From positions 40,942,501 through 41,006,500 of the forward strand of contig NC_088919.1 in assembly GCF_963576675.1 (NCBI RefSeq): 64,000 bases of DNA, read 5' to 3'. This stretch comes from Euphorbia lathyris. Its lineage: Eukaryota > Streptophyta > Magnoliopsida > Malpighiales > Euphorbiaceae. Shown here one piece after another: positions 708 to 55,962 of this stretch (position 1 is the first letter of the stretch; every line of letters starts with the position of its first letter). A model generated the notes under the pieces. It searched no databases. It was not told where the DNA came from and was given only the letters and a program-made list of their open reading frames with translations. A program made the translations under genes and the position numbers.

Positions 708-3146
708 TTACTCAGTGTGAAGCTGGTTGAAGAGATGATGAACTTCGGCAGAAGTTGCATACATTGAGTTCGCAGCTGACAATTGATGAAGTTGACCCTG
801 TAGAGAGTTCATGTGATTAACCATGGTCAGCTGGAGTTCGGCCAGCTTCGTTATTGAGTCCTGCCTGGGCTGCTGAGACTGTAATGAAGTCATGACACTC
901 AAAAGATCCTTAAGACCTTTAATCTCTGTAAGAAGCTGAGTGACAGACGAAAGCTGAGTTGGCTCAACATTAATAGACCTAGCGGCATCGGCGTTTGTTT
1001 GATGAAGGTCCTGGAGAAGGGCTTGAGCTGAGTCAATGATTCTTCGACCAAACTCAGAGGCAGTAAGATAGCTGAAGGATCCATCATTTGTTGGCCCAGA
1101 TGCCGGAAGAGGTGTAGAACCGAATGGAGGCGGTGTTTGGTTCTGCTCAACATTAGAAGTGCCAGCATGATTAGCGGCTGGTCTTGAGTTAAGATTTCCA
1201 TTGGAGGCTGACTGGATTGGATTCTGCACTTGAATTTGTGGAAGAGGATGATCGGCAGAATGTGTTACTTGCTCAGGGTCAGGCTAAAGCTGACTGGATT
1301 TGGGAAGCTGAGGAAGTTCAGTATTGACCTGAGCAGGCATTTCCTTAGATTGCTCAACATGTTGAGCAGGAACTTCGAGCACTTGCTCGGGATCATCTTG
1401 GCTTAGGAGAGCAGTTAAGTCGGCATGTTCCTTAGGTTGAGAAACAGAGGCTTGCTTTTCCTGTTGCTCTGGTGGAGATTCAATAGGATTTGAGAAGAAC
1501 CTAAACTCCTTATCGGATAGGTCAGTGATCGGATCCCGCAGAGGTGAGTCTCCCATAAGGTCAATGACGGGGGATCGAAGTGCCTTCTTCTTAAGTCTTC
1601 TTAGTCTCTTTGTCTTTGGAGGAGAGGGGTAAGCAGGAATAGACTCAATAGAGTCAGCAGGTGAAGGTTCCCTTTGAACAGTGTGTTCCTTTTCTGTTGG
1701 CTCAGCTTCTTCCTCTTCAATCTCCTCAGTGTAGATTGTGCCATGTTGATCAGCATCTGATGGCTCATCATGCTCATCATCCACTGTTTCCTCATCATCG
1801 AACTGACCACCCAGTTCTTCTTCATCTTGTTCATCCTGTGATTGCTCAGTATCAATGCCAAGACTTCTCACATAGTGTGAGTCTTCAGGAATAACGACGT
1901 TGGTAGGAGGTGCATTGATGGGTCTTAACTCAAAAGAGAGTTTCTTCTTCTTCCTTAGTGGTTGCTCATCAGCTTCCTCTCTCTCTTCTACCTCAGGCTC
2001 AGCTTGCCTTGGTCTTTTCTCAGTTGACCTAGGTCCATCCTGACCTTGTTGAATTTGAGGCTTAGTTCCTCTGGATACGAATTTAAGCTTCTTTGGTGGA
2101 GAAACAACTTCTTTAGAGGTGCTTTGAACAGCTTTCCTCTTTCTTTCCGTCCTTCCCTTTCGAGTCACCATTACCTCAGTGTCCTGAACAGCAACTGCTT
2201 TCCCTTTCTTGGGCACAATTGGTTGATCGTAGAATAGACCAAACAGTGCCGCTGTAGTGATTTCTGTTCCAATAGTGTGGATTTCCTCAACCAAGCTCAC
2301 CCTGTGATCCTTAAGGATTTTGGTGATAATAGAGCCTAGCCTAAGGGTTCCGGTACTTCTTTGAAACCCACCGATTATGAAGACAGGCATGTTTATCGGC
2401 GTATAGGTCAGTATGTGCCAGATGAAGCACTGCTCAAAGTTTGTCACTGAGTTGGTGCAGTTGATCTTAGGGAAGAGGAAATTGGTCAGTATGTAATGGG
2501 CCATCTTCTGATGCTGACCCATGGAGGTACTCGAAATTTCCCCTACATGACCAGGAGGTTTACAGAATTCAACGGAGTAGTTGGTTTTGTCTTGGTCACC
2601 AGATTTACGAAGTATTGCTCCTTCGGTTTTCAGCTTGAGTAGTGAGGCAAGATAAGCGGGGTTGATGAAGATATCATTCCCTTTAACTTGGGTGACCATG
2701 TAGTCCCGATTATCATCCGCGGCTTTTAGGTTAGCGTAGAATTCCTTCACTAACTCAGGATAGGTCTCTTCGCGAACTGAGAACAGCTCGGTCCAGCCGT
2801 TGTTTTTGATCCAGTCACAGAAGGGTTGCTCAACTTCCACAAAACCCCTTGAGAATCATCTAGAGTGGTCTACCTTATACCCCCTCACACTCTCGTAAAC
2901 CGGAGAGTAGGTGCGTTCCACGGGCTTCTTTGCCTTATCTTGCTTTTGCTTCCCTTTCGAGGAGGTGGCTTGGTCAGCCTTGGTTTGCTTCCTCGGTGTA
3001 GTGACCTTTGAGTAGTCATGCTGACTCGTGTCTTGAGACTTGGTGGGAGTCTCACCGTGTTCCTACTGAGCAGGGATTTTAGGGTTTTCATCGGAGCGAT
3101 TAACAGTGTAACCGGCACCGGAGACATTCTGAGAATCTTTTGTCAT
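708..3146 (-). pseudogene. Sirevirus third ORF (putative plant transposon protein / env-like position)
   Basis: One minus-strand frame of about 810 codons runs from ATG 3146 to a stop at 708, broken by three in-frame stops (near 3064, near 2860 and at 1284). The conserved part (2840-2200) resembles the domain Pfam calls putative plant transposon protein: CDWIKNNGWTEL near its start, an FYANL motif, and a hydrophobic middle. The C-terminal half is acidic, rich in Glu, Asp, Pro and Lys-Arg tracts, and ends in a region likely to be helical. I see no clear signal peptide or fusion-type membrane segment, so the env-like label is positional only. The gene has its own TATA box upstream. The domain name is recognised by pattern, not by search. 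Confidence 0.7.
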
Positions 3147-3156
3147 GATTCTTAGA

Positions 3157-3626
3157 GAAGTTTTGAGAAGTTTGGGAGATTTTAGAGAGAGTATTTGAAT
3201 ACCAGAAATTTCTAAGCGTAAAGAGATAAAAGTGGAAAATCATCCACTATTTATAGAGGTGTCGAATTGATCCTAAGCGTTGAGGTGGCCGTTTGACCTC
3301 GAGATACTCAATCGACAAATATTCTGGCTTTTATGACACATTCGGCGCATGTGTTTTCTAATCATCGCGCTTACGTCATCCTAGGTGGCTATTTAATTTG
3401 CATGTTATGCATTAAAGTTTGCAACGGATCTTTACTCAGTGTTAAGGATCTCAAACGTTTAAGGTTCTGAGTAGTCAGTGTTATGCAAAGGAATAATTCT
3501 TATGCTTAGTTTCTCAGCTTAAAACACTCAGTATGTAAATCTACTCAGCATATGATAGTTATTGATTAAGCATAAATCATTCAACATGGTAATTCACTCA
3601 GCATGCATACATACTATACTTGGAAT
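3157..3626. other. Spacer between copia pol and third ORF
   Basis: This stretch lies between the end of RNase H coding (3627) and the third ORF. It holds the TATA box at 3247-3256 and many copies of ACTCAG or CTCAGC-like words (for example around 3430-3600), a word family that is also dense in the LTR and coding parts of the same element. I see no gene. Confidence 0.6.
3247..3256 (-). promoter_or_regulatory. TATA box for the Sirevirus third ORF
   Basis: On the minus strand this reads CTATAAATAG, a near-consensus plant TATA box, about 100 bases upstream of the ATG at 3146. The bases between are pyrimidine-rich and lack an ATG, as expected of a plant leader. It would allow the third ORF to be expressed separately from the genomic RNA. 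Confidence 0.55.
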
Positions 3627-6243: not shown

Positions 6244-6914
6244 TAGGGCTGTAATCGAGCCGAGCCGAACCGAGCTTTGGCCTGTTCAAGCTCGGCTCGC
6301 TATAAAATTAACGAGCTCGAACCCGAGCCGAGCTTGCTATAAAATTAACGAGTCGAGCCCGAGGCGAGCTTTGGCTTGCTCAACGAGCTTGAGCCGAGCT
6401 TCGAGCTTGTTTCGAGCCTAAAATCCTCTTTTGGACTTGGTTCATTAAGAAAATTATCTAATCATGAATTGTTTGTGAGTAAATTGTTAATTATATTTGT
6501 GAAGTTTGCTCGCAAATAACTCTTTAATTGTGTACATAAACAAGCTCACAAGCAAAGTTCGTGAATAAATAAACAAGATGCTTACAAATAGTTCGTCTAT
6601 TACTTATTTATTATGTTTGTGAACGAACTCATCTAATAGCAAATGAAATAATATTAAATTTAGATATTTGTGAACTAACACAAAACTATATAGTTTTCTA
6701 CAAAACTAAAATTTGTTTATAAATGTTCTAATCGAGCCTGCTCGCGAGCTTTCAATCCGAGCTTTGGCCTGCTCAAGCTTGGCTCGTTTACGAACCGAGC
6801 CAGTAAATCGTGTTCACGAGCGGCTCGTTTACAAATCGAGCCGAGTCGACCCGAGCTTTTATCGAGCCGATCACCTAGCCGCTCATGAGCGGCTCTATTC
6901 ATTTACAGCCCTAG
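6244..6914. mobile_element. Non-autonomous hAT MITE, 671 bp
   Basis: Ends are TAGGGCTGTAA and TTACAGCCCTA, an inverted repeat typical of plant hAT elements, and the element is flanked by an exact 8-bp duplication GGCGTCCG (6236-6243 and 6915-6922). Subterminal regions are full of GAGCCGAGC and GCTCGG words on both strands; the middle is AT-rich. It contains no transposase. A related element begins at 54899. Confidence 0.92.
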
Positions 6915-6976
6915 GCGTCCGCCCAACCATTTTGGGCGTAGCCCGACGCCCTTCGGGCTACGCCCAAAATTTTTTT

Positions 6977-7007
6977 GGGATCCGTGCCTATAAAAGGCAC
7001 GGATCCC
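6977..7007 (+). promoter_or_regulatory. LTR core promoter: TATA box inside a 12-bp inverted repeat
   Basis: The sequence is GGGATCCGTGCC, then TATAAAA (6989-6995), then GGCACGGATCCC, a perfect 12-bp inverted repeat around the TATA box. Thirty or so bases downstream begins a GAGAGCTTCTCACTCT leader typical of a transcription start region. The same arrangement is kept in the 3' LTR at 20338-20368. Confidence 0.8.
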
Positions 7008-9188
7008 CATGCATTTAGGGGGGAGGAATTTTGAGAGCTTCTCACTCTAAAACATTTTTTAGAGAGAGAAAGTGATTTTTTTTGGGAAAAACCATTTTTT
7101 TTCCTAAAAATTTGGAAATTCCTAAAAGTTAAATATTTTACCAAAACACGAAAAAACACCGAAAAATCATGTCGTGGAATCAACCGACTTCAACTGTCAA
7201 TACCGATCTTGAGGTATTATCCGAGGACTAGACTCGTGTCATTTATTTTAATTATTTTGTTCATTTATTTTTATTGTTAGTTTTTATTTATTTATTTATC
7301 ACGTTTATTTACTTTCCCGTATTTATTTAATTCTCGTCTCGTATTAAATAAACGTTTGTTTGGGTTTTGAAATAAAAAACCTCGTTTTAACATCCCAATA
7401 TGAACCGTGATCCCGTTTGAGGGTAGTTCGGGAATTCCGACATTGTATATGTATAGATTTTAGAAAAGCCTTTTTAATTAACGTTTTAAAAATAAAACAT
7501 CGTTTTAGGAGCCTCCGTTATAGACTATGATCCTATTTGGGTAGTTCGGAGGTCCAAAACGATGGAATAGATCTAATTTAAAGTGTTTGAACAAATCTGG
7601 AATGTTAGGTACTGTTTCTGTAATTTTCTATTTTCTGTCACAAACGGAATTTCCGTCGGTAAAGCTGCTGAAATGTAAAAAAATGCTATTTTGGTCGTTC
7701 TTTCTCAACTTTTAGACTTTTGGTCCTTTATATATATATATATATGTATAATTATGTAATATATGCATTCAAATTATTTTTAATTATTTTGTATATATAT
7801 TTATTCAACATGTTTAGATATTATTTTTCATTAATTTGATTTGATAAAATTATGTATATATATAGATTTTCCTTTAAATTCATTTAAACTATACATATTT
7901 GTCATTTTGGGATTATTAAGGGTTATTTTCTATATATACTTGTCATAATAGTTATTTTGGAGTTAAAAGTTAATTTCTTATCATTTGTGAATATTAGTGT
8001 CATTTTTATCTATTAATCATAGTCTTTATTATTTACCTTTTCTTTTAAATGTATATGTATAATTATCATTTCTATTAAAAATATATATATATATATGTAC
8101 ACCTTTCTTCCCTTTTTAAATTTCCTATATGTATATATGATTTGGAAAATGTTTTGGTTGGGTGAATTTGGATTTAATTTATTAATTGTTGTCATTATAT
8201 TCAAATGAAGGATAATTGAGTGAAAAAGGGGAAAATAAACCACAAAAAGAGATTTTAATTTGCTTATTTAAACTTAAGTTTTCTAGAAGTTCCTAATGTA
8301 AATAAAAGGCTTTCCTATTATTTTAAACCGTTTCCTAAAACATCACGTTTTAAAACCTTAATTCGTTCCAACGACGGATTAAGCGAACATTGTAATTAAA
8401 ATTGTTTTTTTTGTGAATAATGAAGTTTTGAATTGTTTTCCTAACTAAATGGTTTTGTACAAAATAAATTGACTTGTATGCTTAATCACGTTTTTAGATT
8501 AAAACTGTTTGCTCAACGTTTTCAAACACTCGAGTCGTTCCAACGACGATTCGAGTGAACATCATTAACGGGGTTTTGAAACGTACCTAAATCGTTCCAA
8601 CGGCAATTAAGGTACGAACCATGTAAATAAACTCGTTTTTTTGGGAGTGAGATTAGCGTAGATGTAATATACGATATAAAGCATAAATCACACTGTGAAT
8701 AAATCAATTCTTTCTTCTCCCCCTCTCTCTCCTATATACTTTAAATTTATGCAAAATGGGTGATTCTTTACTAAAATGGCTTTTAATGACATGCTCAAAA
8801 CGGTTTTCAAAACGAGAAAGAAAAGGTTTCAAATGAATTTTAAACTTAAAGAAATATGCGATTAGTCCGTTATCGCCTAACACGCTGAGTAGGAGGCCGG
8901 TGGTTCATAACCGGGCGATGTCGGGGTGCCTAGTAGCCTTTCTCCGGAAAGGAGCTAGCCTTCTCGGCTCGTACCTAAGTTTCCCGAACCCTCACCGGTC
9001 TCCCGCAAGGGATCGGTGTTCATTTTCCCATTCGTGGGTGGCGACTCTTCCATACTCCAGGCTCCGGTCCTGCCGAGCACCTTGATTCCACGATTGGTTG
9101 CTTTTGGCGCCAATCACCGCTTACGTCGCCATGAGGTGTCCACCCCCCGGTCCGCCCGGGCGAGGCCGTCAGCACCTTGTCTAACAAG

Positions 9189-9206
9189 TGGCGACTCTGC
9201 TGGGGA
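9189..9206 (+). other. Primer binding site of gypsy A
   Basis: TGGCGACTCTGCTGGGGA starts two bases after the LTR end (CTAACA at 9181-9186). Starting with TGG it can pair with the CCA end of a tRNA. I do not assign the tRNA species. Confidence 0.8.
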
Positions 9207-11113: not shown

Positions 11114-12943
11114 ATGGATGCCGTTCGCGCAGACTTCATCATTAAGCGGTTGTGGTTTCGCGAGAGTAGCCGGCTAGTCAAGCAGTTTGATCAACTACAG
11201 ATTGACGGTTCCGAATCGGCAGTTGTGGCTTCTGAATCATCTTCGTCTGAGTATACTCAGCCTTCTGCCAGTATGTCAGCGACCGACGAAAAGGTGGCCG
11301 AATTGGAAAACTCTAATGATCAGTTGGCCGCAATTTTGGCCCAACTCGCTGAGCTAGCGTTGAAGGATAACAAGAGTGGTAGTAAGCGTGCTGAGAATGA
11401 GGTGAACACCGGTCCCCGCTTCGGGAACGAGGATGACTATCAGGATTATATCCAGAAACAGCTTGAGAAAGAGAAGGCTAAGGAAGAGGAGTGGAAGCAG
11501 CACATCACTCAGGAAGTGCAGGATCTGGGTGGGGGAAGTTTCGGGAGTCAGGACTTTTATAATTTGAAGAACTGCTTGTCGGCAACGGCTTTGCCTTTGA
11601 AATTCCGGCTCCCGGGCATGAAGAAGTTCGATGGAACTTGGGATCCCACGGCTCACATGAATCAGTATGTTGCAATAATGAAGCACATGATCCTGACTGA
11701 GGATCAAGTCCTGGGACTGTTTAATACCTATCTGGAGGGAGCTGCCCCCGTATGGTTTCATGCGTTGCCGGTGGTGACGAAGAGAGATTGGAAGGAGTTG
11801 GCAAAATCATTTATCGCTCAGTATAGTTTCAACACTATGCTTGAGGTTACTCTAAAGGAGCTGGAAAGCACTAAGCCACAAATTGGTGAGTCTTTTTCCG
11901 ATTTTGTGAGGAGGTGGAGAGCTAAGGCGGCGGTTATGAAGCAAAATCCGCTTGAGCAGGATCAGATCCGAATGGTAATTGGCAACACGTTGCCATATAT
12001 TAAGAATGAGCTGCGGTATATGCCTTTTACCGATTTCAATCAGATGTATAGCTGCGCCTTGACAGTCGAGGGGGACGGAGAGCCGAAGAAAGCTTATACC
12101 AAGTGGACAAAGTCTGGATATAGTGCCGGAGGGCCAAGCGCGAGTACAGAATCGGCCGCCGTGAAAGTGCTTGATCTTAATGCTATCGAGAAGAGGCAGT
12201 TCGCCAAGTTTGATCAGACCTACGCAAAAGTTTTCGAACGATTGCAGAAAAAGGGATTGTTGAAAGCCCTCACTCCTTATAGCAAAGCACCGCCTACTCC
12301 GCAGATACAAGCTAGGGGATACTGCGAGTTCCACAGTAATTATGGGCACACTATTGAGAACTGCGAGAGACTGAAACACAAGATTCAGGATTTGATTGAG
12401 GAAAAGAAGATAGTTGATCCTTCATCAGCGAACCCTTCCACTAGGCGTAATCCATTGCCTAACCATAGGGTGAGCATGATCGGGTCTGGGCTCGGAGCAA
12501 GTTTAGTCATGGAATCCTTCGGGGAAAATGAAGAGGAGTTGTTGGACTCCGATGAGAAGAGTAATGTTGGAAATGGTTTATACGTGTCCTTCCTTGGCAA
12601 GGAGAAGGAGGGTGAACCGATGGATGAAGGGTTAGACGGCGGAGCACCGTATGATGAAGATAGTGCTGAAGAGACCGGGGAAGGGTCGTCTCGAACTATT
12701 GTGCCAGAATTGAGTCTATTCAGTGGAGGAGAGAATCCCGATGTGCACTTGCGTGAGTATATGCATGATATGTTTGTTGAATCCTTTGGGATGGACGAGA
12801 TTGCTCAGTGGTTCCACCATTCGTTAATAGGCGAGCCTTTGGGGTGGTTCCACTCATTGCCTGACTCCTGCAAGCATGATTGGGAACAGTTGTCCAATTT
12901 ATTCCTAGAAAAGTACAAGAAAGCTAAGGATAGGACCGCATAG
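11114..12943 (+). CDS. Gag of gypsy A, first part: capsid-like domains 1 and 2 plus zinc knuckle
   Basis: A 609-codon frame. Residues about 1-160 are a charged, Gln-rich N-terminus. Capsid-like domain 1 (about 11599-12090) has both lobes: KKFDGTWDPTAHMNQYV, a VWFHALP turn, and SFSDFVRRWRAKA. A CX2HX4HX4C knuckle (CEFHSNYGHTIENC) lies at about 12322-12363. Where a protease would follow there is an acidic linker and then a second N-lobe (12701-12940) with the shared motif SLIGEPLGWFHSLP. The TAG at 12941-12943 is in frame with the next block, so the protein probably continued. Gag forms the particle shell around the element RNA. The Met at 11114 is the first in frame; an upstream start is not excluded. 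Confidence 0.85.
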   Translation: MDAVRADFIIKRLWFRESSRLVKQFDQLQIDGSESAVVASESSSSEYTQPSASMSATDEKVAELENSNDQLAAILAQLAELALKDNKSGSKRAENEVNTGPRFGNEDDYQDYIQKQLEKEKAKEEEWKQHITQEVQDLGGGSFGSQDFYNLKNCLSATALPLKFRLPGMKKFDGTWDPTAHMNQYVAIMKHMILTEDQVLGLFNTYLEGAAPVWFHALPVVTKRDWKELAKSFIAQYSFNTMLEVTLKELESTKPQIGESFSDFVRRWRAKAAVMKQNPLEQDQIRMVIGNTLPYIKNELRYMPFTDFNQMYSCALTVEGDGEPKKAYTKWTKSGYSAGGPSASTESAAVKVLDLNAIEKRQFAKFDQTYAKVFERLQKKGLLKALTPYSKAPPTPQIQARGYCEFHSNYGHTIENCERLKHKIQDLIEEKKIVDPSSANPSTRRNPLPNHRVSMIGSGLGASLVMESFGENEEELLDSDEKSNVGNGLYVSFLGKEKEGEPMDEGLDGGAPYDEDSAEETGEGSSRTIVPELSLFSGGENPDVHLREYMHDMFVESFGMDEIAQWFHHSLIGEPLGWFHSLPDSCKHDWEQLSNLFLEKYKKAKDRTA

Positions 12944-14026
12944 TGTTTTGCGCTGCAAATTGGGCCTATTAAGCGTCCATTGCCAGCTGTCAGTAAATAC
13001 AACGGCAACAAGGATCCAATAGAGCACCTTCACTTCTACTTGTCGGCCATGGGGCCGTTGGGTTTTAAGGAAGAAGAGATCACCAGTCTGTTTTGCAATT
13101 CACTGATAGGAGAGCCGCTGATGTGGTATATGTCTCTACCGATGCGTATCAAGTGCGATTGGGCCGCGATGACCAAGAGGTTCATTAAGGAATATATAGT
13201 ATGGATGCTTGCGGAGCAAACACCGGACTCACCCTCTTATGAAACACCTGAAGCGGTGTTGGCAATGCCCAAGTATGGCGGATATCGGGATCCTGTGGAG
13301 CACGCAAGGTTGTTCCGCAATCATATGTATGATGTTGGGTTCCCTCAATGTGAGTTACATGAACACTTCTCGGAAACTCTCATGGGAGAAGCCTTGTTGT
13401 GGCACCAAGGCCTATCAGAGGAAGAAATGGGTCATTGGATACCTCTTAGGGATGCGTTTGTGTCAAGGTATGAGATGTATGTTCCATGGACGGGATCCCT
13501 GGAAGATCTGGATAGGATCAGGCAATTCCCCGAGGAACCGTTTGTGGATTACGCTAGGAGGTGGAGGTACCACTACGAGCAGTGTCAAGAGACGATGAGT
13601 GAAAAGGTGCAGCTCATGTGCATACAAAGAGGCGCAATTCCGATGGCGGAAAGAAGGATGAATAGAGTGTCCCTCAGGGACTATGATGATTTGATAGGCT
13701 GGGCTGTGTATGGATCAGCGGATCCCTTGTACGTAAATCCGAACGTCCCTCACGTGATGGATCTGATGGTTGTGGATATCTGGGGAAGTTCCTCGGACGA
13801 GGAAGGTATCAATCAGAAAGCTTCAGTCCATATCTGGGATGAGTCTGATGACGAGCCGAAAATTGCCGTAATGGTAGAGTCGGGCCGAGGCACCGAGGGA
13901 AAGAATCTGCCAGGATTTAAGATCTTCAACGATGTTACCGACTGGGGCAAAGGAAAGGCAAGCTGCTTCATAGAGGGGATCATGATGCTTGACCTGAATG
14001 CTGAGGAGCAAGTTATCACTGCATAG
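12944..14026 (+). pseudogene. Gag of gypsy A, continuation: capsid-like domains 3 and 4
   Basis: Same frame as the preceding 609 codons after one TAG. Domain 3 (about 12971-13200) has KYNGNKDPIEHLHFYL and SLIGEPLMWYMSLP. Domain 4 (13249-13726) has KYGGYRDPVEHARLF, TLMGEALLWHQGL and a C-lobe with FVDYARRWRYHYEQC that matches the C-lobe of domain 1. Then comes an acidic tail to a TAG at 14024. No Asp-Thr/Ser-Gly protease motif is visible in this frame between the zinc knuckle and RT. The order N-C lobe, knuckle, N, N, N-C lobe is not the usual single capsid of gypsy elements. Confidence 0.8.
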
Positions 14027-15704
14027 GCAACCGTGGGAGCGGTGGATGAACCAAGCACCTCCAAGGCCCATGAAAACCCCGAGAACCCCGATGACGACAA
14101 CTAGATTACCGCTTTGTTTGAATATGACGATGTACTCACCAATACTATCAATGAAATGAATTCTGATTTTGCTTACTTGCTTGATGTTGATTCTGATCAT
14201 TCCATGCATTCTCATTCATATAACATGCCTACATTTGAAATCAATGCAATAGAAATGTCAACTTTAAATCTTGGCACGGATGAAAATCCTAAACTTATAC
14301 AAATTGCTCAAGAATTAACTATTGAAGAGAGGAAAGAATTTGAGAGAATAATTAAAAAATACGAAATAGTGTTTGCTTAGACGTATGAAGACATGCCAGG
14401 AATTGATAAATCCATCGTAGCTCACCGTATTCCAACATACCCCGATGCTAAGCCTGTGAAACAGAAGCTCCGACGCATGAGGCCGTAATAGGCAGATAAG
14501 ATCAGGGAAGAAGTGAAGAAACAGTTAGAGGCAGGTTTCATCGAAGTAATTGAATATCCGCCATGGGTGGCAAATGTAGTGCCAATCGCAAAGAAGGACG
14601 GTAAGGTGCGAATGTGCGTCGACTATAGAGATCTCAACAAGGCTTGAAGATGAATTCGCATTGCCCCACATTGATGTATTGATCGACAGTGCAACATCAA
14701 GCATCTTGCACACAAACGTAGATGGCTTCATGGGCTACATGCAGGTTCAGATGGCCGAGAAACACAAAGCAAAGACCTCGTTCACTATTGAGTGGGGGAC
14801 ATATTGCTATAGAGTAATGCCATTTGGTTAAAAAAACGCCGGTGCAACTTATCAGCGAATGGCTACGGCACTGTTCCACGACATGATACACAAAGAGGTG
14901 GAGGTCTATGTGGATGACATGATTGTCAAGTCAAAGACAAGAGAAGGGCATTTCGTGGCACTTGAGAAGTTTTTGGCCTGAATCACAGAATTCAAGCTAA
15001 GGTTGAACCCGAAGAAGTGCTTCTTTGGCGTTTCCTCGGGGGAAATCCTAGGCTATGTAATCAGCAACATGGGGATTGAGGTGGATCCCGATAAAGTGAA
15101 AGCCATACAGGAAATGCCGGCACCGAAGAATGAGAAAGAAGTGAGAGGATTCCTGGGGCAGGTTCAGTATATCAGTCGATTCATAGCACGACTCTCCACA
15201 ATCTGCGAACCAATCTTTAAGCTGCTACGGAAAGATCAACCCACAGTTTGGAACGATAAGTGCCAGCAAGCGTTGGAAAGTGTCCGGACCTATTTGACTA
15301 ATCCACTGGTTTTGAGGCCGCCTAAACTCGGAAAACCACTTCTCCTCTATGTAGCGATCGAGGAGCGATCCATTGGAGCAATGTTGGCCCAGGAAGGGGA
15401 CACCGGTGTGGAGCACGCAATATATTATCAGAGTAAAAAGTTCATGGGATACGAGCTTAAGTATAATATGTTCGAAAAGACGTGCGTGGAAGTCGTATGG
15501 CTAACAAAGAAGTTGCGGCACTATTTTCAGTCTTATAAAGTGATCATTATTTCCCGGATGGATCCCGTGAAGTATCTGTACCGAACTCCATCCTTAACAA
15601 GGAAGCTGGCCCGATGGTTCTTGATTTTATCCGAATTCGACATCGAATATGTGACGAAGAAGGTTATCAAGGGGAGAGCCGTGACGGAATTTCTGGCCAA
15701 TTAG
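14027..15704 (+). pseudogene. Gypsy A pol: reverse transcriptase and RNase H, broken
   Basis: In frame with gag at first. Recognisable RT parts are WVANVVPIAKKDGKVRMCVD (14558-14620), the VMPFG and NAGATYQRM region (14815-14860) and VYVDDMIVKSK with the catalytic YVDD (about 14905-14940). The connection and first RNase H follow to 15704 (FLGQVQYISRFIARL, AIYYQSKKF, SEFDIEYV). Disruptions: TAG 14102 and 14378, TAA-TAG 14486-14491, a small deletion with frameshift at about 14645, TAA 14829, TGA 14979, TAG 15702. Several stops sit where Trp or Gln is expected. This copy cannot make RT. Confidence 0.85.
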
Positions 15705-16624
15705 CCCCTAAGTGCGGAAGAAGAGGAGATAAACTATGATTTTCCCGACGAGCGCCTGAACGCAATAGAAGTTATACCATGGAAAATGTTCTTTAATGGA
15801 GCGGTTAAATCGAATGGAGCGGGTGTAGGAGTGTTGCTTATCTCACCAGAAGGGGAAAGGATCCCGATGGTAAAGAAGTTGTCGTTCCCTCTCACTAATA
15901 ATATGGCCGAGTATGAAGCGTGCATCTACGGGTTAGACTCACTAGCAGTGCTAGGAGCGTCGTATGTTGAAATCTGGGGCGACTCAAAGTTGATTATCGA
16001 GAAAGCCCATGAAATTGGGAAGTAAGGGAAGAAAGGTTACGCCCGTACCTAGACCAGCTAGGAGGGTTGGCATAGAGGTTCAGTGAGTGCCGCTTTTATC
16101 ATATTCCCTGAGCGCAGAACCAAGCGGCGGATGCATTGGCCATGCTGGTGTCGGTATGGGATAATCCACGGAATCTTGCCTCAAAGCCTCTAGTACTGAG
16201 GAGGTCTCACAAACCGTGCTACAAAGATGTAATGTTGTTAGGAGTGGATGGAAAGCCTTGGTATTTCGATATCGTGAACTTCATGAAAAGTGGAACTTAT
16301 CCGACAGAATCAGAACTTAGGGATCAGGCCGTGATTAGAAGGTTAGCCTAGCAGTTCGTCATCCACAATGACTTGCTCTACAAAAGGCACGCCAATGGAT
16401 TACAATTGAGATGTTTAGACGAGGGAGAAGCCCGTGAAGCGATGGAGTCGGTGCACTCGGGAATTTGTGGAGCCCATATGAGAGGAGCAGTGTTAGCAAA
16501 GAAAATCATAAGGCAAGGCTTCTATTGGCTCACCATGGAAAGAGATTGCAACAAATATGCGAAGGAATGCCATGGTTGTCAAATCCACTGGGATTATAAT
16601 CACCTGCCAGCTATGTAACTACAT
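15705..16624 (+). pseudogene. Gypsy A pol: second RNase H and integrase zinc domain, broken
   Basis: After the stop at 15704 a second RNase H-type domain is seen (15786-16025: GAVKSNGAGVGVLL, NNMAEYEACIYGL, GDSKLIIEKAHE), as in Tat elements, though the first catalytic Asp of the usual DGA motif is replaced (NGA). The piece 16026-16372 holds further fragments with stops at 16023 and 16349. From 16373 the integrase zinc domain appears: HSGICGAHMRG and CHGCQIHW supply the HHCC residues, ending with a TAA at 16616-16618 just before the catalytic core. Confidence 0.75.
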
Positions 16625-17530
16625 GTGTTAGCACCCATTTGGCCGTTTGCGGCTTGGGGCATTGATATCATCGGGGAGGTGAGGCCTAATGCGTCGAACG
16701 GACACAAATTCATTGCAGTCGCCATTGATTACTTCACCAAGTGGGTAGAGGCAGAATCATTTAGCAAGTTGGGGTCTAAGCAGATGAGGAAGTTCATTGA
16801 AAAGCACTTGATCACCAGGTTCGGAGTGCCTCATCACATGATCACGGATAATGGGGTCCAGTTTCAGGGAGAGGTGAGAAGTCTCTTCCAAGAGTACGGT
16901 ATTGAGCATCATAGGTCTTCTCCGTATCGCCCACAAGCTAATGGTGCAGTAGAGGCGGCTAATAAGAACCTTAAAAGGATTCTTGTAAAGATAGTAGAAT
17001 CGCATCGGAATTGGCACGAGCAGCTTCCGCTCGCTTTATGGGCTTATCACACGATGGTTAGAACGTCAACTGGGGCAACGTCGTTCTCCTTGGTATATGG
17101 GGCCGAAGCCATCCTCCCAATTGAGATTGAAAAGCGATCGTTAAGCATCGCAGTAGAAGCAGAGATTCCCGAGATGGAATGGGTGAAGAAGCGATATGAG
17201 CAATTAGTATTGGTGGACGAGAAAATGATGGAGGCTCTTTACCACGTGCAGTTATATCAGAGAAGGATGGCCCGAGCCTTCAACAAAAAGGTCAAGGCCA
17301 GCCCTATCAAAGAAGGGGACCTGGTGCTGAAACAAATCCGAATGACGCACACCGACCCTAGGGGCAAGTTCAGGCCAAACTGGGAAGGACCATTCCTCGT
17401 GAAGAAAATCCTAAGCAAAGGGGCGGTGAAGCTAACTACTATGGACGACATGGAGTTCTCCGAACCTACCAATCTAGACAGGCTTAAGAAATACTTTTCG
17501 TTAAAAAAAAGAAAAAGAAAAAAGAAATGA
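16625..17530 (+). CDS. Gypsy A integrase catalytic core and C-terminus (fragment of pol)
   Basis: A 301-codon open stretch that continues the polyprotein after one stop. The DDE triad is visible: Asp in AAWGIDIIGEV (about 16665), Asp in HMITDNGVQFQG (about 16845) and Glu in ANGAVEAANKNLKRI (about 16955). The C-terminal part has the chromatin-near motif GDLVLK, PNWEGPFLV and ends in a Lys/Arg-rich tail. Integrase inserts the element cDNA into chromosomes. In the living element this is the end of Gag-Pol, not a separate gene. Confidence 0.85.
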   Translation: MLAPIWPFAAWGIDIIGEVRPNASNGHKFIAVAIDYFTKWVEAESFSKLGSKQMRKFIEKHLITRFGVPHHMITDNGVQFQGEVRSLFQEYGIEHHRSSPYRPQANGAVEAANKNLKRILVKIVESHRNWHEQLPLALWAYHTMVRTSTGATSFSLVYGAEAILPIEIEKRSLSIAVEAEIPEMEWVKKRYEQLVLVDEKMMEALYHVQLYQRRMARAFNKKVKASPIKEGDLVLKQIRMTHTDPRGKFRPNWEGPFLVKKILSKGAVKLTTMDDMEFSEPTNLDRLKKYFSLKKRKRKKK

Positions 17531-17961: not shown

Positions 17962-20159
17962 CTAATAAGGAGGAAGATCCCAGAAGTCCTCAAAGTCCCT
18001 CAGACGAGAAGCCCGCTCCGCAGATAAGGCCTCCTCGGCAACCCGACGACCCTCCTCGGCGGCAAGGCGCCCCGCGGTCTCCACTCGCGTCATCTCCTCT
18101 GCGGTAAGACGCCCCTCGGTCTCCACTCGCATCATCTTCGACCAATGAGCATTTCTCTCTCGATAGACATGCCCGACCCTAGCATCGGCATCCCGCTGCG
18201 ACTCACTGAGCCACTGCTCGTTTGTATGAAGATCGCTCTGCAAATAAAAAAAAGAAGAAGAAAAAAAATATATCAAAACAGACAACAACTGAAGTCATAC
18301 ATACATATGTGCATCACACGCATACATTTCACTACACTAATACAGAATAAGAATACTCACCAGGTGTCCGGCACAGCGCAGGTTGAGCTGCTCTCTGAAA
18401 TAACCGGATAATCCTATGTAATCGGTACACGTCTCCCTCGAAGTATGGAGGGCATCAGGGGGATCGAACGGCATCCTCGAGGTAAAAACCGAAGGGGCTG
18501 TCTCGATACCGGAGTAGGCCACGCCCACCTCACCGTAATGAATCACCGGAAAATCTCTCCCTGGGATCGGGAAGGGTGTGCCAAGGCGAAGCTGCTCTGG
18601 TCGGGCAGCGCCGGAGGACTCACCCGCGTGATAAGAAGCCTCGCTCACGGATGCTCGGGCTCGGGTACCATCGAAAAAATCCGACGTCCGAGCACTCCTC
18701 AAGGAACCCTCCTGCAAATAAAGGCAAAATGAATACACCTAACTATCTCATAAACAAAGAATAAATAAGTCAGACACTCACCGGAACCTCCTCTGATCCA
18801 AAAACTCCAGCAACGGCGGCCGCCGAGAACACGTCATCCGCAGGGTCCACATCCATCGCAACCTCGGGAGGATCCAGCGGGGTCAACAGAGTCAATAAAT
18901 AGTGGACGCAACTCCCTGCGTGGTCCCACACATCTCGAGGCGCAAATCGACGGGTCAAATCGCGACGGATGTCCGACAAGGGCATGACCCTCACCGCAAA
19001 CATGGACACGGGAATCTCACCTGGCGTCCAATGTGTGGCGCTAACCCCAGTAAAACCGCGGTCACCCAAATACCATGCTCGCACGCACGGGCCGGTGAGC
19101 ACACACTGCTGCCCCTGAACGCGGGTGACATAAGCATAATCGGGACCAAAATCGCGGTCGTCCCATCTGAAGGAAATCTGAAAAACAAAAGAAAGGTCAG
19201 ACAAGATCAAACGAAAATCCAGTATAGTTAGGAGACGTTCACCTATCCCAAGCTCCGCGTGTCGATCCATAATAGGAGTCGGGCCACCGTCCGGCTCCTC
19301 TCAGTGCGCAAATCAAAGTCACTCCACCTCGCCATAAGTGGAAGCCTAACCGCGCGCGGCCTACTCCTGCGGGTGCACGGAAGAATCCGCCTCTCATAGG
19401 CCCAAACCTGCTCGTAGAAACAGATGTCAGAAGCAGAAATCGCGAAGAGAATAAAGGGGCAAGCCAATGATAGAGGACGTACCAGGAGGGCAAAGGTGTA
19501 ACCGCCGAAATCCTTGCGCTTCCGACAAGTCAAGTCGAGGAATTTATATAGAAAAGCCAAGCCGGCTCCTGACCAATCATAGGACGACACCGCATCCAAA
19601 TCACGGAAAGCCTGGATGAGACCCGCATATATGGTTCCGCTCTTAGTGCGGAAGATCGTCTCGCTAAAGCATACAGAAGGAAGCTGCGAGTGGCCTGATC
19701 CGTGTCATCTCGGTCACAGAAGTCCCTGCGACTCAATAATCCAAAGGTGGTAACAAACTTCGCCGGGGTGGACTTGACACCTGGATAGACTCCGGGTCCG
19801 ATCAGAGCAGATATCTCAGCACGGTCAACCCGAGGACGCACCATGTCGAAGAAAAGCGGGACCGGGATGCCGCTACCCCGCAATCCGGTCAGCAGGGAGA
19901 AGTCGCGGGGCGAGATCGTCATCTCCCCAAACGAGAAGTGAAAGGTGTGGGTCGAGTCTACCCATCTCTCGCATAAGGCGCGCAGGCCGAACCGGTCGCA
20001 CACTCCGTTGGCATGAGGCAGCGCCAGGATGAAAGGCTCGAAGCCCAACTCTCGTACCCGGGCTTTAGCCGCCGGGCTAAGCATGGCATGCCATGTGTGA
20101 ATGTCCTCGGCGGTCCCTGAAATGCCAATGACCTGGAAGGAACGGAACGGGTAAGGCAA
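17962..20159 (-). pseudogene. Antisense plant-mobile-domain (PMD) gene with introns inside gypsy A
   Basis: Minus strand, opposite to gag-pol. Exon pieces: 20159-19483 (LGFEPFILALPHANGVCDRF, TFHFSFGEMTISPRDFSLLT, then SYDWSGAGLAFLYKFLD), 19407-19243 (VWAYERRI, RWSDFD), 19177-18782 (FRWDDRDFGPDYAYV), 18711-18361 and 18237-17962 (Arg/Glu-rich coiled coil, stop at 17962). Introns 19482-19408, 19242-19178, 18781-18712 and 18360-18238 all run GT to AG and all keep phase 0, which supports the model. The domain is that of MAIN/MAIL1-type PMD proteins, also known in plant transposons. Breaks: one frameshift near 19672 and a TAG as last codon of the exon ending at 19243, where CAG is expected before GT. 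Confidence 0.8.
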
Positions 20160-20195
20160 AGGGCCAAACTAAAGTCATTACTTTTTTTCACTATT

Positions 20196-20275: not shown

Positions 20276-22566
20276 GGCGTAGACCCAAAATTTTTGGGCG
20301 TAGCCTGACGCCCTTCGGCTACGCCCAAATTTTTTTTGGGATCCGTGCCTATAAAAGGCACGGATCCCCATGCATTTAGGGGGGAGGAATTTTGAGAGCT
20401 TCTCACTCTAAAACATTTTTTAGAGAGAGAAAGTGATTTTTTTTGGGAAAAACATTTTTTTTCCTAAAAATTTGGAAATTCCTAAAAGTTAAATATTTTA
20501 CAAAAACACGAAAAAACACCGAAAAATCACGTCGTGGAATCAACCGACTTCAACTGTCAATACCGATCTTGAGGTATTATCCGAGGACTAGACTCGTGTC
20601 ATTTATTTTAATTATTTTATTTATTTTGTTCATTTATTTTTATTGTTAGTTTTTATTTATTCATTTATCACGTTTATTTACTTTCCCGTATTTATTTAAT
20701 TCTCGTCTCGTATTAAATAAACGTTTGTTTGGGTTTTGAAATAAAAAACCTCGTTTTAACATCATAATATGAACCGTGATCCCGTTTGAGGGTAGTTCGG
20801 GAATTCCGACGTTGTATATGTATAGATTTTAGAAAAGCCTTTTTAATTAACGTTTTAAAAATAAAACATCATTTTAGGAGCCTCCGTTATAGACTATGAT
20901 CCTATTTGGGTAGTTCGGAGGTCCAAAACGATGGAATAGATCTAATTTAAAGTGTTTGAATAAATCTGGATTGTTAGGTACTGTTTCTGTAATTTTCCAT
21001 TTTCTGTTACAAAGGAAGTTTACCGATGGAATTTCCGTCGGTAAAGCTGCTGAAATGTAAAAAAAATGCTATTTTGGTCATTCTTTCTCAACTTTTAGAC
21101 TTTTGGTCATTTATATATATATATATATGTATAATTATGTAATATATGCATTCAAATTATTTTTAATTATTTTGTATATATATTTATTCAACAAGTTTAG
21201 ATATTATTTTTCATTAATTTGATTTGATAAAATTATATGTATATATATAGATTTTCCTTTAAATTCATTTAAACTATACATATTTGTCATTTTGGGATTA
21301 TTAAGGGTTATTTTCTATATATACTTGTCATAATAGTTGTTTTGGGGTTAAAAGTTAATTTCTTATCATTTGTGAATATTAGTGTCATTTTTATCTATTA
21401 ATCATAATCTTTATTATTTACCTTTTCTTTTAAATGTATATGTATAATTATCATTTCTATTAAATATATATATATATGTACATCTTTCTTCCCTTTTTAA
21501 ATTTTCTATATGTATATATGATTTGGAAAATGTTTTGGTTGGGTGAATTTGGATTTAATTTATTAGTTGTTGTCATTATATTCAAATGAAGGATAATTGA
21601 GTGAAAAAGGGGAAAATAAACCACAAAAAGAGATTTTAATTTGCTTATTTAAACTTAAGTTTTTTAGAAGTTCCTAATGTAAATAAAAGGCTTTCCTATT
21701 ATTTTAAACCGTTTCCTAAAACATCACGTTTTAAAACCTTAATTCGTTCCAACGACGGATTAAGCGAACATTGTAATTAAAATTGTTTTTTTGTGAATAA
21801 TGAAGTTTTGAATTGTTTTCCTAACTAAATGGTTTTGTACAAAATAAATTGACTTGTATGCTTAATCACGTTTTTAGATTAAAACTGTTTGCTCAACGTT
21901 TTCAAACGCTCGAGTCGTTCCAACGGCGATTCGAGTGAACATCATTAACGGGGTTTTGAAACGTAGCTAAATCGTTCCAAAGGCGATTAAGGTTTGAACC
22001 ATGTAAATAAACTCGTTTTTTTTGGAGTGAGATTAGCGTAGATGTAATATACGATATAAAGCATAAATCACACTGTGAATAAATCAATTCTTTCTTCTCC
22101 CCCTCTCTCTCCTATATACTTTAAATTTATGCAAAATGGGTGATTCTTTACTAAAATGGCTTTTAATGACATGCTCAAAACGGTTTTCAAAACGAGAAAG
22201 AAAAGGTTTCAAATGAATTTTAAACTTAAAGAAATATGCGATTAGTCCGTTATCGCCTAACACGCTGAGTAGGAGGCCGGTGGTTCATAACCGGGCGATG
22301 TCGGGGTGCCTAGTAGCCTTTCTCCGGAAAGGAGCTAGCCTTCTCGGCTCGTACCTAAGTTTCCCGAACCCTCACCGGTCTCCCGCAAGGGATCGGTGTT
22401 CATTTTCCCATTCGTGGGTGGCGACTCTTCCATACTCCAGGCTCCGGTCCTGCCGAGCAGCTTGATTTCACGATTGGTTGCTTTCGGTGCCAATCACCGC
22501 TTACGTCTCCATGAGGTGTCCACCCCTCGGTCCGCCCGGGCGAGGCCGTCGGCACCTTGTCTAACA
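20276..22566 (+). repeat. 3' LTR of gypsy A, lacking its first part
   Basis: Matches the 5' LTR from about 6923 to 9186, including the TATA palindrome (20338-20368), (TA)n tract and the TCTAACA end. The first ~500 bases of the LTR (TGTAGACACC start and palindrome array) and a polypurine tract are not found before it; the antisense gene and G-box repeats directly precede it. Short indels separate the copies, for example near 20635 and 21020. Confidence 0.85.
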
Positions 22567-49279: not shown

Positions 49280-52200
49280 ATGAGTATCCTAAGCTGGAAC
49301 TGTCGTGGGCTAGGCAACCCACGTACAGTTAATGTTCTTGTGGACCTGGTTAGGGTTCATAGGCCTATGGTTACTTTTTTTAATGGAAACTATGATTATA
49401 GAAGAGAAAGTGATAACGGTTTCTAAAAAACTTGGCTATAGTGGATACTTTATTGTCGATGGGCCTGGTCATGGGGGTGGTCTTGCTTTACTATGGAAAG
49501 AGAATATTTCGGTCACCATACAATCTTCATCTCTTAATCATATTAATGCTTTTATCACTTTTCCAAACATACCAGTTTGTCGTGTTACTGGATTCTATGG
49601 ATTCCTGGAAAGACAGCGACGAAGGGCCTCTTGGGATTTGCTGCGATCCCTCAAAGACCAAGACGGTTTAGCCTGGTGCTGTATCGGGGATTTTAATGAT
49701 GTGTCGAGTTTGCGTGATAAACGAGGGGGAAGAAGTCAACCTAATTGGCTTGTTGAGGGATTTAAGCAAGCAGTAGAAGCGAGTGGTTTAGGTCCAATCC
49801 TTATGGACGGTCATCCTTTCACCTGGGAAGTCGGGCGCGGCACAGATAGATGGATTGAAGAAACTCTCGATCGTGCCCTTGTCAACGCAAAGTGGAAAGA
49901 ATTGTTTGCTGACTCTAGAACCCGGAACCTTGCAACTGTGTCTTCTGATCACTCAGCTATCTTTCTAGAGTGTAAAATGTGGCTTCGTTGTTTTGGGATT
50001 AAACGCTTCCGATTCGAGAATGCCTGGCTTCGGGAGTCTAATTGCGCAGCAGTTGTACATCAGGCGTGGATGTCTGAGTCGAGTAGTTCGATATCTGATA
50101 AAATTGCGATATGTACTGAGGCTCTTAAGGGGTGGAGCTCCTTGCTGGAATCGAATTTCAAGCAATCCCTAGATATTTATAGGACCCAGATGCAAGGCTG
50201 TAAAGGTAGGAGGGATGTATATGGTATGGAGAGATATAAGCAAGCTTCACAAGCGTATTTATCAACTTTAAAAAAACAGGATGACTTTTGGAAGCAAAGA
50301 GCTAAGTTGATATGGATGAGAGACGGTGACGCAAATTCTCAGTATTTTCATGCATACGCATCTGACAGAAGGAAAAGAAACAGTTTCTCGGCACTGAAGG
50401 ACTCTAACGGGATATGGCGCACAAAATGTAATGGGATGGATGATATACTGTCTGAGTATTTCAATGGAATTTTCACCAGTATGGGCAACAATGATTCTGC
50501 TTTACTGTCGTATGTTCGATCCAGGGTCTCTCCGAAGGAAAACGAATTACTGTCTCATGCGTTTTCTAGGGAAAAAGTTAAAGGTGCATGCTTTTCAATG
50601 CATCTAGATAAAAGTCCGGGACCTGATGGGCTCAATCGGCCTTTTTTCAGCACTTTTGGAACATTGTGGGACATGATGTATGTGAAGCATGCTTCTCTAT
50701 TCTCTGAGCTAATAGGCTTCCACCAACGCTTAACGACACTCTGATCGTGCTCATTCTAAAAATTAGCAAGCCTGAATTTGTCTCTGATCTATGCCCCATT
50801 GCACTTTGCAATGTATTATTTAAGATTCTATCAAAAATGTTGGCTAACCGTCTCAAGGTAATCCTCCCATCTATAATTTCTACAACTCAAAGTGCATTTA
50901 TTGCAGGAAGATCTATATCCGACAACATTATAGTGGCATATGAAACAATCCATAAGTTAAGAGGGCTAAGACAATGGAAACACGGGACCGCTGCTATGAA
51001 GTTAGACATGAGTAAAGCATATGATCGGATTGAATGGGGCTTTCTGGAGAATATGCTTATCAAGATGGGGTTTAACAGAAGATGGATACAATGGATTATG
51101 ATGATGGTAACTACTGTCTCATATAAAATCGTGCAGGAAGGCAGGGAGATTGGACCTATTATCCCTAAACGGGGACCGAGGCAAAGAGACCCTTTATCTC
51201 CTTTCTTATTCTTAATTTGTGCTGAAGGATTATCTGCATTATTATCAGCTAAGGAATAGGTTGGTTTATTTCATGGTGCTCAGGTAGCTAGAAATGCCCC
51301 AAAAATCTCTCACTTATTCTTTGCAGATGACAGCTATCTGTTTTTTCGAGCCAATAAGAGAGAGGGAAGGGTGGTTCAAGACTGTTTAAGGTGATATGAA
51401 CAAGCTTCGGGTCAGTACATGAATTTCCAAAAGTCTTCGGTATTTTTTAGCGGCAATTCGTCAATAGAAGATCGGTCAGATGTATGCAACGAACTTTGGG
51501 GGCACCAATTGTTGTTGGAAGAAGTAAGATGCAAGTATTCAGTTTCTTAAAAGATAGAATTTGGAAGCCGATCAATAATTGGAAGGAGAAATATTTATCT
51601 CGTGCGGGGAAGGAAATCCTCATCAAAGCTGTGTTGCAATCTATTCCAACTTATGTCATGAGCATATTCCTCATGCCTATAGAGTTCTGTAATGATATTA
51701 ACAATATGCTAAATAGGTTTTGGTGGAATTCATCCTCCTCAACATCAAATGGAATCCACTAGAAGGCATGGGATAAACTTTGTTGGCCGAAAGCTAACGG
51801 AGGATTGGGCTTCCGGGACATCCATAAATTTAATCTCGCTCTTCTAGCAAAACAAAGTTGGCGCCTTGTTACGAATCCGGATTCTCTGATAGCAAGAACT
51901 CTAAAAGCAAGGTATTTTCCTAATGTTGATTTTTTACAGGCTACCCTGGGGCATAACCCTTCCTTCGTGTGGCGTAGCATCATTGCGGGTCGAGGGATCT
52001 TGATCAATGGATTAAGGAGGAAAATAGGCAATGGACAATCCAGTTCCATTTGGAATAGTCCTTGGCTGCCGGACGATCAGAACCCTTTCCCAATAAGCTC
52101 GGTTGTAACGACTTTGCCCTCAGGACTTGTCAAAGACCTTATGGATGATCAAGGAAATTGGAAGCAGGAGGTTATTAACAGCTCGTTTTGCCCACGGGAT

Positions 52201-53304
52201 GCCAAACTCATTTATTCCATACCGGCCAGGCGTACGCGTGTTGAAGATGGTTGGTTTTGGCCATCTGATAAATCTGGTGCTTATACAGTTAGGAGCGGAT
52301 ATTTTCGGGCAAGGGGACTCACACCCTCGAATCAAATAAATCCGAACGGAATAAATTGGAAGCTGATATGGAATTTGAAGGTTGCCCCAAAAGTCAAGAA
52401 CTGTTTATGGCGAATTTTTACCAACTGTCTGCCAACTTTGAATAATCTTGCAATTCGTCATAGCTCGCTACCTAACTGTTGTCCGGTGTGCGGAACTTTT
52501 GGGGAAAACGAGTTTCACGTGTTCATAGGGTGTCCTCGAGCTGCTCAGGTATGGAAATTATTGTTCAAAGAGAATCGGTTGGATCTAATCACGAATTTTA
52601 TCCATTGGTTTACAAATATCCTTGGTGATGTGACGATGGATTGTAACCTTATTGCGATAATCTGTTGGCAACTATGGAGGGCACGAAATGAAAAAGTTTG
52701 GAATGATAAAATTCGAATGCCTGAGGAAATATTTCAAACTGCCACTGCTGAACTGACGACTTGGGAGGCAGCGCAAAGACATCACCTTGATCAACAAAAT
52801 CAATACACGAGTGCTTTGTGTAAATGGAAGAAACCGGTTGCAGGCTGCTACATCTGTAACGTCAATGCAGGGGTAAATGGGTTAAATAATTTCTGCTCTT
52901 TTGGTTTCCTTTTACGCGACTATCAGGGGTGATGCTTTGCGGCAAGCATGGGTTACCTTGCTGAGATAACGGATCCACCTTTGGCTGAGGCAATGGCAAT
53001 CCGCGAAGCGCTATCATGGATCAAGAATTATAACTTAAGCCATGTTGAAGTTCAGTCCGACTGCCTGATGGTGGTATGGGCTATTCAGCTCAAAAAAAGT
53101 CAATTATCTTATTTATCTGATGTGATACGTGAGTGTTGTGATTTGTTGCGAGATTTGAACTCTTGTTCGATCTCTTTTATTAAACGATCAGCGAATTTAG
53201 CAGCCCATAGCCTAGCCAAAGCTGTTACTTCTAGTTCTGTTCGTGGTGAGTGGGCATGTCCACCACCGTTTATTATTGATGTGTTATCTTGTGATTTAAG
53301 TTAA
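49280..53304 (+). pseudogene. LINE ORF2: endonuclease, RT, zinc finger, RNase H
   Basis: Starts MSILSWNCRGLGNPRTVNVL, the usual start of plant L1 endonuclease. A frameshift lies in a T-run near 49378. The endonuclease has CCIGDFNDVSSLRDKRGG and TVSSDHSAIFLECK; RT has SPGPDGLNRPFFSTF, AMKLDMSKAYDRIEWGFLEN and HLFFADDSYLFFRAN (catalytic FADD, about 51315), with RQRDPLSPF where RQGDP is usual. Stops occur near 50743, 51257, 51391 and 51760. The zinc-finger region and RNase H follow; the first RNase H Asp appears as Asn (CNVNAG) and there is a TGA at 52930. Ends with TAA at 53302-53304. Confidence 0.87.
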
Positions 53305-55669: not shown

Positions 55670-55962
55670 GAAGCCCCCCCTAAAGTTCCCTTAAAGTCCT
55701 TTAGGGCTTTTGAGCTTCTACGCGCCGTCATGACTACCTGCATTAATGAGCACTCTGTTCGATGCCAATCGCAGAGTGACACGTGTAACAAGCGCCCTGT
55801 CCAAAGAAAGAGAAGACGCCTTCTTCTTCCTTCTCTTTCTCTTTCTTCCCTATTTCGTTTCCATTTACCTTTTCACTGCTCAAAGCTTTTCCTGGGAGTT
55901 TCAGAGTTCCTTCAAAGCTTTCTTACATGTAAGTTCATCTTTTCTCATTCTATTTTTTCTGA

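Follow-up and report, generated by a model that had tools for sequence, protein, structure and literature searches.

The capsid units of element A

The window analysed here, a stretch of 64,000 nucleotides of the Euphorbia lathyris genome, contains a long terminal repeat (LTR) retrotransposon, element A, whose gag frame encodes four capsid-like domains. An original prediction, made from the letters alone, had pointed to four capsid-like segments in one element, and this was confirmed: the motifs that it named lie in a single frame, 11114-14026, with an in-frame TAG at 12941, and the same units recur in many copies. The true gag start is probably downstream of 11114, because the closest database protein, P0001 of E. 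lathyris (88% identity, 74% of the query covered), begins at window position 11273. The parts of the frame are as follows, with E-values for the profile matches.

11273..14026, plus strand: gag frame carrying four capsid blocks; no stop upstream as far as 11096, start probably at 11273, in-frame TAG at 12941, terminal TAG at 14024
11588..12130, plus strand: capsid 1 (CA1), N- and C-lobe; N-lobe 1.6e-34, Arc PDB sequence match 4.6e-5; C-lobe end approximate
12323..12364, plus strand: Cys/His knuckle-like motif CEFHSNYGHTIENC (nucleocapsid), identified by eye
12701..12919, plus strand: capsid 2 (CA2), N-lobe only; custom profile 9.9e-16, Pfam 3.5e-5
12980..13198, plus strand: capsid 3 (CA3), N-lobe only; custom profile 2.7e-16, Pfam 0.037
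13265..13700, plus strand: capsid 4 (CA4), N- and C-lobe; custom profile 3.4e-11, Pfam 2.2e-8; end approximate

The Pfam family Retrotrans_gag matched two stretches in 11114-12940 (7.1e-10) and two in 12944-14023 (2.5e-12). When the blocks were scored singly, block 2 passed narrowly (3.5e-5; 24.4 bits, cutoff 24.1), block 4 passed at 2.2e-8 and block 3 remained under the cutoff (0.037). A custom N-lobe profile, made from nine CA1 sequences of which none belongs to element A, detected blocks 1 to 4 at 1.6e-34, 9.9e-16, 2.7e-16 and 3.4e-11, whereas the top unrelated piece among 453 six-frame pieces of at least 50 amino acids reached 0.97. The capsid of a second element in the window, element B, scored 1.8e-30, which is no independent control because this capsid is among the nine sequences of the profile. 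Blocks 2-4 are thus far from the background level that would have told against the prediction, and the Pfam and custom profile scores together reject a chance resemblance to capsids. In block-to-block alignments the real score was matched by none of 1000 shuffles for each of the six pairs; the units are mutually 21-33% identical, and the tandem units are spaced by 93 and 92 codons. A nested second element as the source of the extra capsids was rejected, as they share one frame and a regular spacing and the same units are found in 30 copies and in a sister family.

The C-lobe is present in blocks 1 and 4 and was not found in blocks 2 and 3 by Pfam or in structure models, in agreement with the division foreseen by the prediction. 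Block 4 is predicted to fold as a two-lobe capsid and block 3 as an Arc-type N-lobe, so that the helical folds of both lobes of a retroviral/Ty3 capsid are found. For the N-lobes of blocks 3 and 4, that of block 4 being modelled by itself, the models match a crystal structure of the Arc N-lobe with peptides. With the joint model of blocks 3-4, Foldseek returned nothing at E <=0.001. The zinc knuckle was seen by eye where it had been placed, after domain 1; the Pfam scan of the gag frame listed no knuckle family at CEFHSNYGHTIENC. Protein searches with blocks 3-4 and with blocks 2-4 gave no matches, nor did the viral-contig and genome-contig collections that were searched.

The remaining parts of element A are:

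6914..9186, plus strand: 5' LTR; 96.6% identity to 20276-22566, 5' edge approximate
9189..9206, plus strand: putative primer-binding-site-like stretch TGGCGACTCTGCTGGGGA, directly after the 5' LTR, by reading
14243..16022, plus strand: reverse transcriptase (RT; tblastn with relative P0011), RNase H and additional RNase H (aRH; both Pfam), interrupted by stops and a frame change
16619..17527, plus strand: integrase core (Pfam rve 1.2e-12)
19246..20165, minus strand: antisense plant mobile domain (PMD) open reading frames (ORFs), two overlapping frames; Pfam PMD 3.1e-11 (over cutoff) and 4.5e-8 (33.1 bits, cutoff 34.9)
20276..22566, plus strand: 3' LTR, paired with the 5' LTR by identity

The LTR pair differs by a Kimura two-parameter (K2P) distance of 0.019 across 2259 aligned sites. 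Pfam placed RT_RNaseH in 14982-15701 and RVT_3 in 15705-16022 (2.4e-7), so that the aRH lies between RNase H and integrase, and an antisense PMD ORF lies near the 3' LTR. By these two sequence features element A is an Ogre-type Ty3 element. It lacks two others of the Ogre/Tat group, a protease between GAG and RT and a single GAG capsid. On an intron between the gag-pro and RT frames, another Ogre/Tat trait, the DNA points both ways: the window gag stops at 14026, before RT, but one other copy reads through from the capsids to aRH. The antisense PMD ORFs recur at 95% identity in copy L037.

Copies in the genome and the place of the protease

The E. lathyris genome was searched with blocks 2-4 plus the tail, and 40 of 3916 first-look candidates were scored. 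At least 40 places match over about 1.1-1.3 kb at 91-100% identity, including the window copy (100%), and there is one further short match. Among 30 fetched copies the capsid profile found CA1 and CA2 in 29 each and CA3 and CA4 in all 30, with split or incomplete matches included; none is a single-capsid copy, and a local rearrangement of one copy is refuted by their number. In upstream gag the window is 92-95% identical to most of these close copies. Separate pieces were used to screen eight longer stretches (L031-L038), with matches counted at >=60% identity: CA1, knuckle, CA2, CA3 and CA4 are present in all eight, protease after CA4 in six, RT, RNase H and aRH in six and integrase inside the stretch in four (L035 has nothing beyond the protease and L038 nothing beyond CA4). 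The order of the polyprotein is therefore CA1, knuckle, CA2 (N-lobe), CA3 (N-lobe), CA4 (both lobes) and, in most close copies, protease, RT, RNase H, aRH and integrase. The search for intact copies of the same order was answered in part, as the order holds in the 30 copies and in the sister family but the close copies are mostly damaged, and 2/30 are without stop or gap across 11588-13870. One E. lathyris gene model, P0004, joins duplicated RT pieces of another element to the knuckle part of this family's Gag.

No protease was detected in element A with three protease queries (best E 0.34), as predicted; in the same search two queries from Tasmannia detected the protease of element B at 1e-10 and 2e-9. 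In 25 of the 30 close copies CA4 is followed by an aspartic protease (typically VMVDDGSAINVC), usually around 2900-3340 of the oriented locus and further on in L026. Scores with a custom protease profile ranged from 6e-11 to 2e-35, and Pfam scores on three of the pieces from 5e-4 to 0.02, under the cutoff. The extra capsids thus precede the protease and do not stand in its place. The protease is absent from five close copies: L001 (the window copy), L002, L003, L013 and L028. The place of the difference in the window is:

13873..13890, plus strand: joint; protease-bearing copies have about 1.0 kb more here, including the protease, and in the window copy CA4 is joined to the tail

The five protease-less close copies show at least three different joints. 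Compared with L001, the other four have several joints, some with a common right edge, as if template switching or deletion had been repeated at one place. One protease-less copy keeps an unbroken native frame of 1652 amino acids from the capsids to aRH.

The protein P0002, 66% identical to the window gag, led to a second family in the same genome, in which it was found at 100%; 95 main places were scored of 16819 first-look candidates. The locus of P0002 (L045, C2:37706446-37710200) is a gag truncated beyond CA1 and knuckle, with a different gag-bearing element starting behind it, and is uninformative for the protease. Copy L046 has an unbroken frame of 935 amino acids, whose identity to the window is 80% in CA1, 49% in CA2, 83% in CA3 and 60% in CA4; it has no protease, and the tail follows directly after CA4. 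Twelve further sister copies, hand-picked from plus-strand rows and read downstream, all have CA2, CA3 and CA4-N, none has a protease (0/12) and the tail begins within about 100 bases of CA4. Seventeen of the 95 main rows have an open frame of at least 900 amino acids and no stop in the match; the protease region was read for part of these 17. The joints are mainly of two types, a long one (window, L049 and similar copies) and a short one (L046, L002, L003 and others), and several protease-less copies have recurrent joints. Since 13/13 informative sister copies (L046 and the twelve) lack the protease, its absence recurs as a variant and goes beyond local damage. The proposal that domains 2-4 lie where the protease should be is overturned for the window's own family by the 25/30 close copies and partly restored for the sister family only; what stands of it is the missing protease of the window copy and of the 13 sister copies.

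The sequence around the joint suggests how the window copy lost its protease. Across 13890-14240 the window matches protease-less L049 at 98.3% identity and L047 at 97.7% (over 300 bases); the remaining ten sister copies reach 86.6-93.7%, and the 26 of 29 close copies that can be aligned in this part reach 81.6-88.0%. Across 13541-13873 its identity is 85-90% to 29 close copies versus 78-84% to 12 sister copies. The window copy is probably a mosaic of both families with a switch near the boundary of CA4 and protease, which would explain the missing protease. Its pol carries 10 stops in 1091 codons (three pieces, each in its own frame), where about 1.75 are expected since insertion at a rate of 0.013 (P 0.0003) and 3.5 at the doubled rate (P 0.0045); the expectation used an LTR K2P of 0.026 (ragged ends), above the 0.019 given above, and is conservative. 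The gag has 1 stop in 970 codons (pol versus gag, Fisher 0.013). This excess suggests that pol was damaged before copying, and hence that the window copy moved with borrowed enzymes.

Constraint on the capsid units and relatives elsewhere

Selection was examined on biallelic codons in 29 copies with no reference codon; L027 was dropped as its 5' part is unaligned. In CA2, CA3 and CA4-N taken together, variants found in a single copy were 33 nonsynonymous and 11 synonymous, and those in at least two copies 11 and 31 (Fisher 1.1e-5). By region, the shift was seen in CA1-N (p 0.0003), CA3 (p 0.0002) and CA4-N (p 0.005); there was none in the linker from knuckle to CA2 (p 1) and no clear one in the part after CA4 (p 0.13). 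Between the window and L046, the proportions of nonsynonymous and synonymous differences (pN/pS) were 0.11/0.57 in CA1-N, 0.26/0.89 in CA2, 0.10/0.98 in CA3, 0.29/0.76 in CA4-N, 0.16/0.67 in CA4-C and 0.23/0.61 in the linker, so that amino-acid change is well under silent change in all regions. Two families at synonymous saturation both retain the order CA1-CA2-CA3-CA4. As judged from these variants, purifying selection on CA3 and CA4-N appears clear.

Nine of 20 database relatives outside Euphorbia carry a second capsid N-lobe after the knuckle (P0005-P0011, P0013 and P0017); P0011 and P0017 are from Fagus sylvatica and the other seven are JGI proteins. These beech-type Tat proteins resemble element A in having the second N-lobe after the knuckle and an acidic linker, but they have only one extra unit versus three. 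No protease was found within the same protein in any of the nine, of which P0011 is a gene model that may have lost parts. In P0010 the extra unit is 42% identical to its own capsid 1 versus 24-25% to blocks 2-4. A common origin of the beech-type second capsid and blocks 2-4 was disfavoured (p-AU 0.03 and 0.02) in trees of 87-residue rows with long branches, where the forks for duplication of each group's own capsid are weak (63/75, 29/80). The beech-type N-lobe was probably gained independently of the spurge units, as far as these alignments indicate. Mean differences among eight of the relatives (P0011 left out) were 9% in the second capsid, 3-4% in capsid 1, 15-24% in the two linkers and the tail and 10-16% in the knuckle regions; the second capsid thus looks constrained, less than capsid 1, in a set that was retrieved via capsid 1 and is biased in its favour. 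The same eight (P0005-P0010, P0013, P0017) show by eye two tandem knuckle-like regions between capsid 1 and the second capsid; the window has one.

Three Tat proteins from Tasmannia lanceolata (P0012, P0016, P0020) have the same Gag type and knuckle as element A, and the P0012 tail LPGFEIFFD resembles the window's LPGFKIFND. Unlike element A, they have at most one capsid unit followed by a protease (protease 3/3, extra capsids 0/3, with a protease profile built partly from P0012 and P0020). The remaining 8 of the 20 relatives, several of them short, have neither a second capsid nor a protease.

Excerpts of a survey (PMC6317226) describe Ogre and Retand with aRH between RNase H and integrase, a plant mobile domain in 57% of Ogre elements, and intact elements made of GAG, PROT, RT, RH and INT, PROT being present in nearly all. 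Element A shares aRH and the antisense PMD with the Ogre clade (Tat, non-chromovirus). It differs from the described order GAG, PROT, RT, RH, INT in having four capsid units, and no protease in the window copy or the 13 informative sister copies. Retand clusters without GAG, without GAG and AP, or without RH and INT are listed in the accessible part of another report (PMC11963269), which does not mention an extra GAG; in the available portion of a review of additional ORFs (PMC7264820) there is likewise no mention of an extra capsid. A capsid domain duplication is on record for foamy viruses (PMC5379526, abridged), and by the title of that work it is ancient and inside the capsid itself, whereas the extra units of element A lie beyond the knuckle. 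Corky was considered as a possible oak relative; this element, 5.9 kb long, has a protease according to the accessible extract (PMC3465219). Searches of open-licence PMC with a few phrases gave, among the matches listed, no report of a plant element with more than one gag or capsid domain nor of a protease-less Ogre lineage, which is not proof of absence.

Elsewhere in the window, element B (55540-64000, minus strand) is Retand-like and has one capsid, as had been stated, with a protease (MIDTGSS), RT and RNase H in one frame, 60065-63649. A further frame spans 58599-60083, and an opposite-strand Transposase_28 ORF 55963-56646 (Pfam 1.2e-9). The LTRs of element B may include a direct repeat of 491 bases at 55540-56030 and 63510-64000, whose two copies share 98% identity. 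An open frame of 389 amino acids at 51763-52932 (plus strand) presumably corresponds, from its appearance by eye, to the C-terminal region of a LINE-type reverse transcriptase.

Possible roles of the extra capsids

The reading that we prefer, though we stop short of calling it probable, is that CA2-CA4 form an assembly module with lattice contacts to CA1 and that the protease-less branch would most likely spread by co-assembly with protease-bearing Gag-Pol. The three units would be a built-in structural module whose N-lobes contact CA1 of the same or a related Gag in the lattice. As the segment lies in frame between knuckle and protease, protease-bearing copies could release it as a protein of some 400 residues that comprises three N-lobes and one C-lobe. 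Without a protease CA2-CA4 would remain attached to Gag or Gag-RT, and through the extra lobes this branch may co-assemble with protease-bearing Gag-Pol and use its protease in trans. Retroelement recombination usually occurs during reverse transcription. If this holds for the recombination between the branches, both RNAs must have been in one particle, which gives indirect support to co-packaging.

Several observations weigh against this assembly module with a borrowed protease. Borrowing in trans is suggested by the missing protease and the copy number, and a host protease or uncut particles would look identical. The sister places that were read, 14 of 95, were chosen by the analyst and include the uninformative L045. 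Just left of the joint the window is only 85-90% identical to the close copies versus 92-95% in the rest of gag, so a single switch may be too simple an account of the mosaic, and the excess of pol stops comes from a single copy that is itself a recombinant. CA2 alone has no clear shift (13:7 versus 5:5, p 0.46), nor have CA4-C (p 0.22), CA1-C (p 0.47) and the knuckle region (p 0.24). Between the window and L046, CA2 and CA4-N (pN 0.26 and 0.29) are no slower than the linker (pN 0.23), and only CA3, CA4-C and CA1-N are clearly slower. Recombination can also create shared variants. CA2 is in these comparisons the weakest case for constraint, and its capsid score in both families appears to be its support.

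A wider form of the idea is rather unlikely: a many-copy Ty3 lineage without a protease, whose four-capsid Gag packs as uncut particles or enters those of a protease-bearing sister with which it recombines, the extra lobes, gained independently in spurges and beeches, being the tool of a retrotransposon parasite or of a protease-free life cycle.

Arc and retroviral capsids dimerise via the C-lobe, which two of the three extra units lack. The extra N-lobes might, by analogy with that of Arc, be adaptors that bind peptides of host factors, integrase or the PMD protein and are no part of the lattice. The match of the predicted N-lobes of blocks 3 and 4 to the peptide-bound Arc crystal structure would fit such adaptors, but a common fold by itself shows no function, and we regard them as unlikely.

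Unlikely, too, is that CA2-CA4 act as a self-encoded brake, with freed capsid fragments that would poison particle assembly in the element itself or its relatives and thereby keep copy number down. The analogy is with Ty1 p22/p18 of yeast, which the available text of PMC8458377 presents as a Gag fragment thought to block assembly. In both cases a Gag fragment would act on Gag assembly; Ty1, however, belongs to Ty1/copia and makes its fragment from a sub-genomic transcript of an ordinary gag, whereas element A has diverged units inside the polyprotein. N-lobe-only units would be natural partial lattice subunits, and protease-bearing and protease-less branches coexist and appear to recombine. 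Yet self-limitation is hard to reconcile with high copy number and constraint, and a segment in frame in the polyprotein would, barring an internal transcript, be made in an amount equal to CA1.

It is very unlikely that the missing protease reflects independent deletions in dead copies with no protease-less lineage. The different joints of the five protease-less close copies would be expected from such deletions, but the 13/13 sister copies with recurrent joints and the unbroken protease-less frames of 1652 and 935 amino acids are not. Least credible, and largely refuted for CA3 and CA4, is that the repeats are passengers of template switching between co-packaged RNAs with no role: the probable recombination between branches in the window copy itself, the tandem spacing of 93 and 92 codons and the absence of clear constraint on CA2 alone would agree with it, but the units are recognised as capsids at only 21-33% mutual identity, amino-acid changes are underrepresented among the old variants of CA3 and CA4-N, and all units are kept in two families at synonymous saturation.

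Ty3 elements and retroviruses are usually described with one capsid per Gag, and elements of the present kind could escape annotation that looks for a single GAG with PROT behind it. The family offers a natural test of capsid lobes outside the standard lattice, and its branches with and without a protease, which share these capsids within one genome, provide a system for asking whether maturation can be borrowed or skipped. Beech-type elements appear to have made a similar gain independently, which suggests selection for extra capsid units. A four-capsid family of many copies, with some units clearly constrained, suggests that the architecture of Gag is freer than has been assumed.

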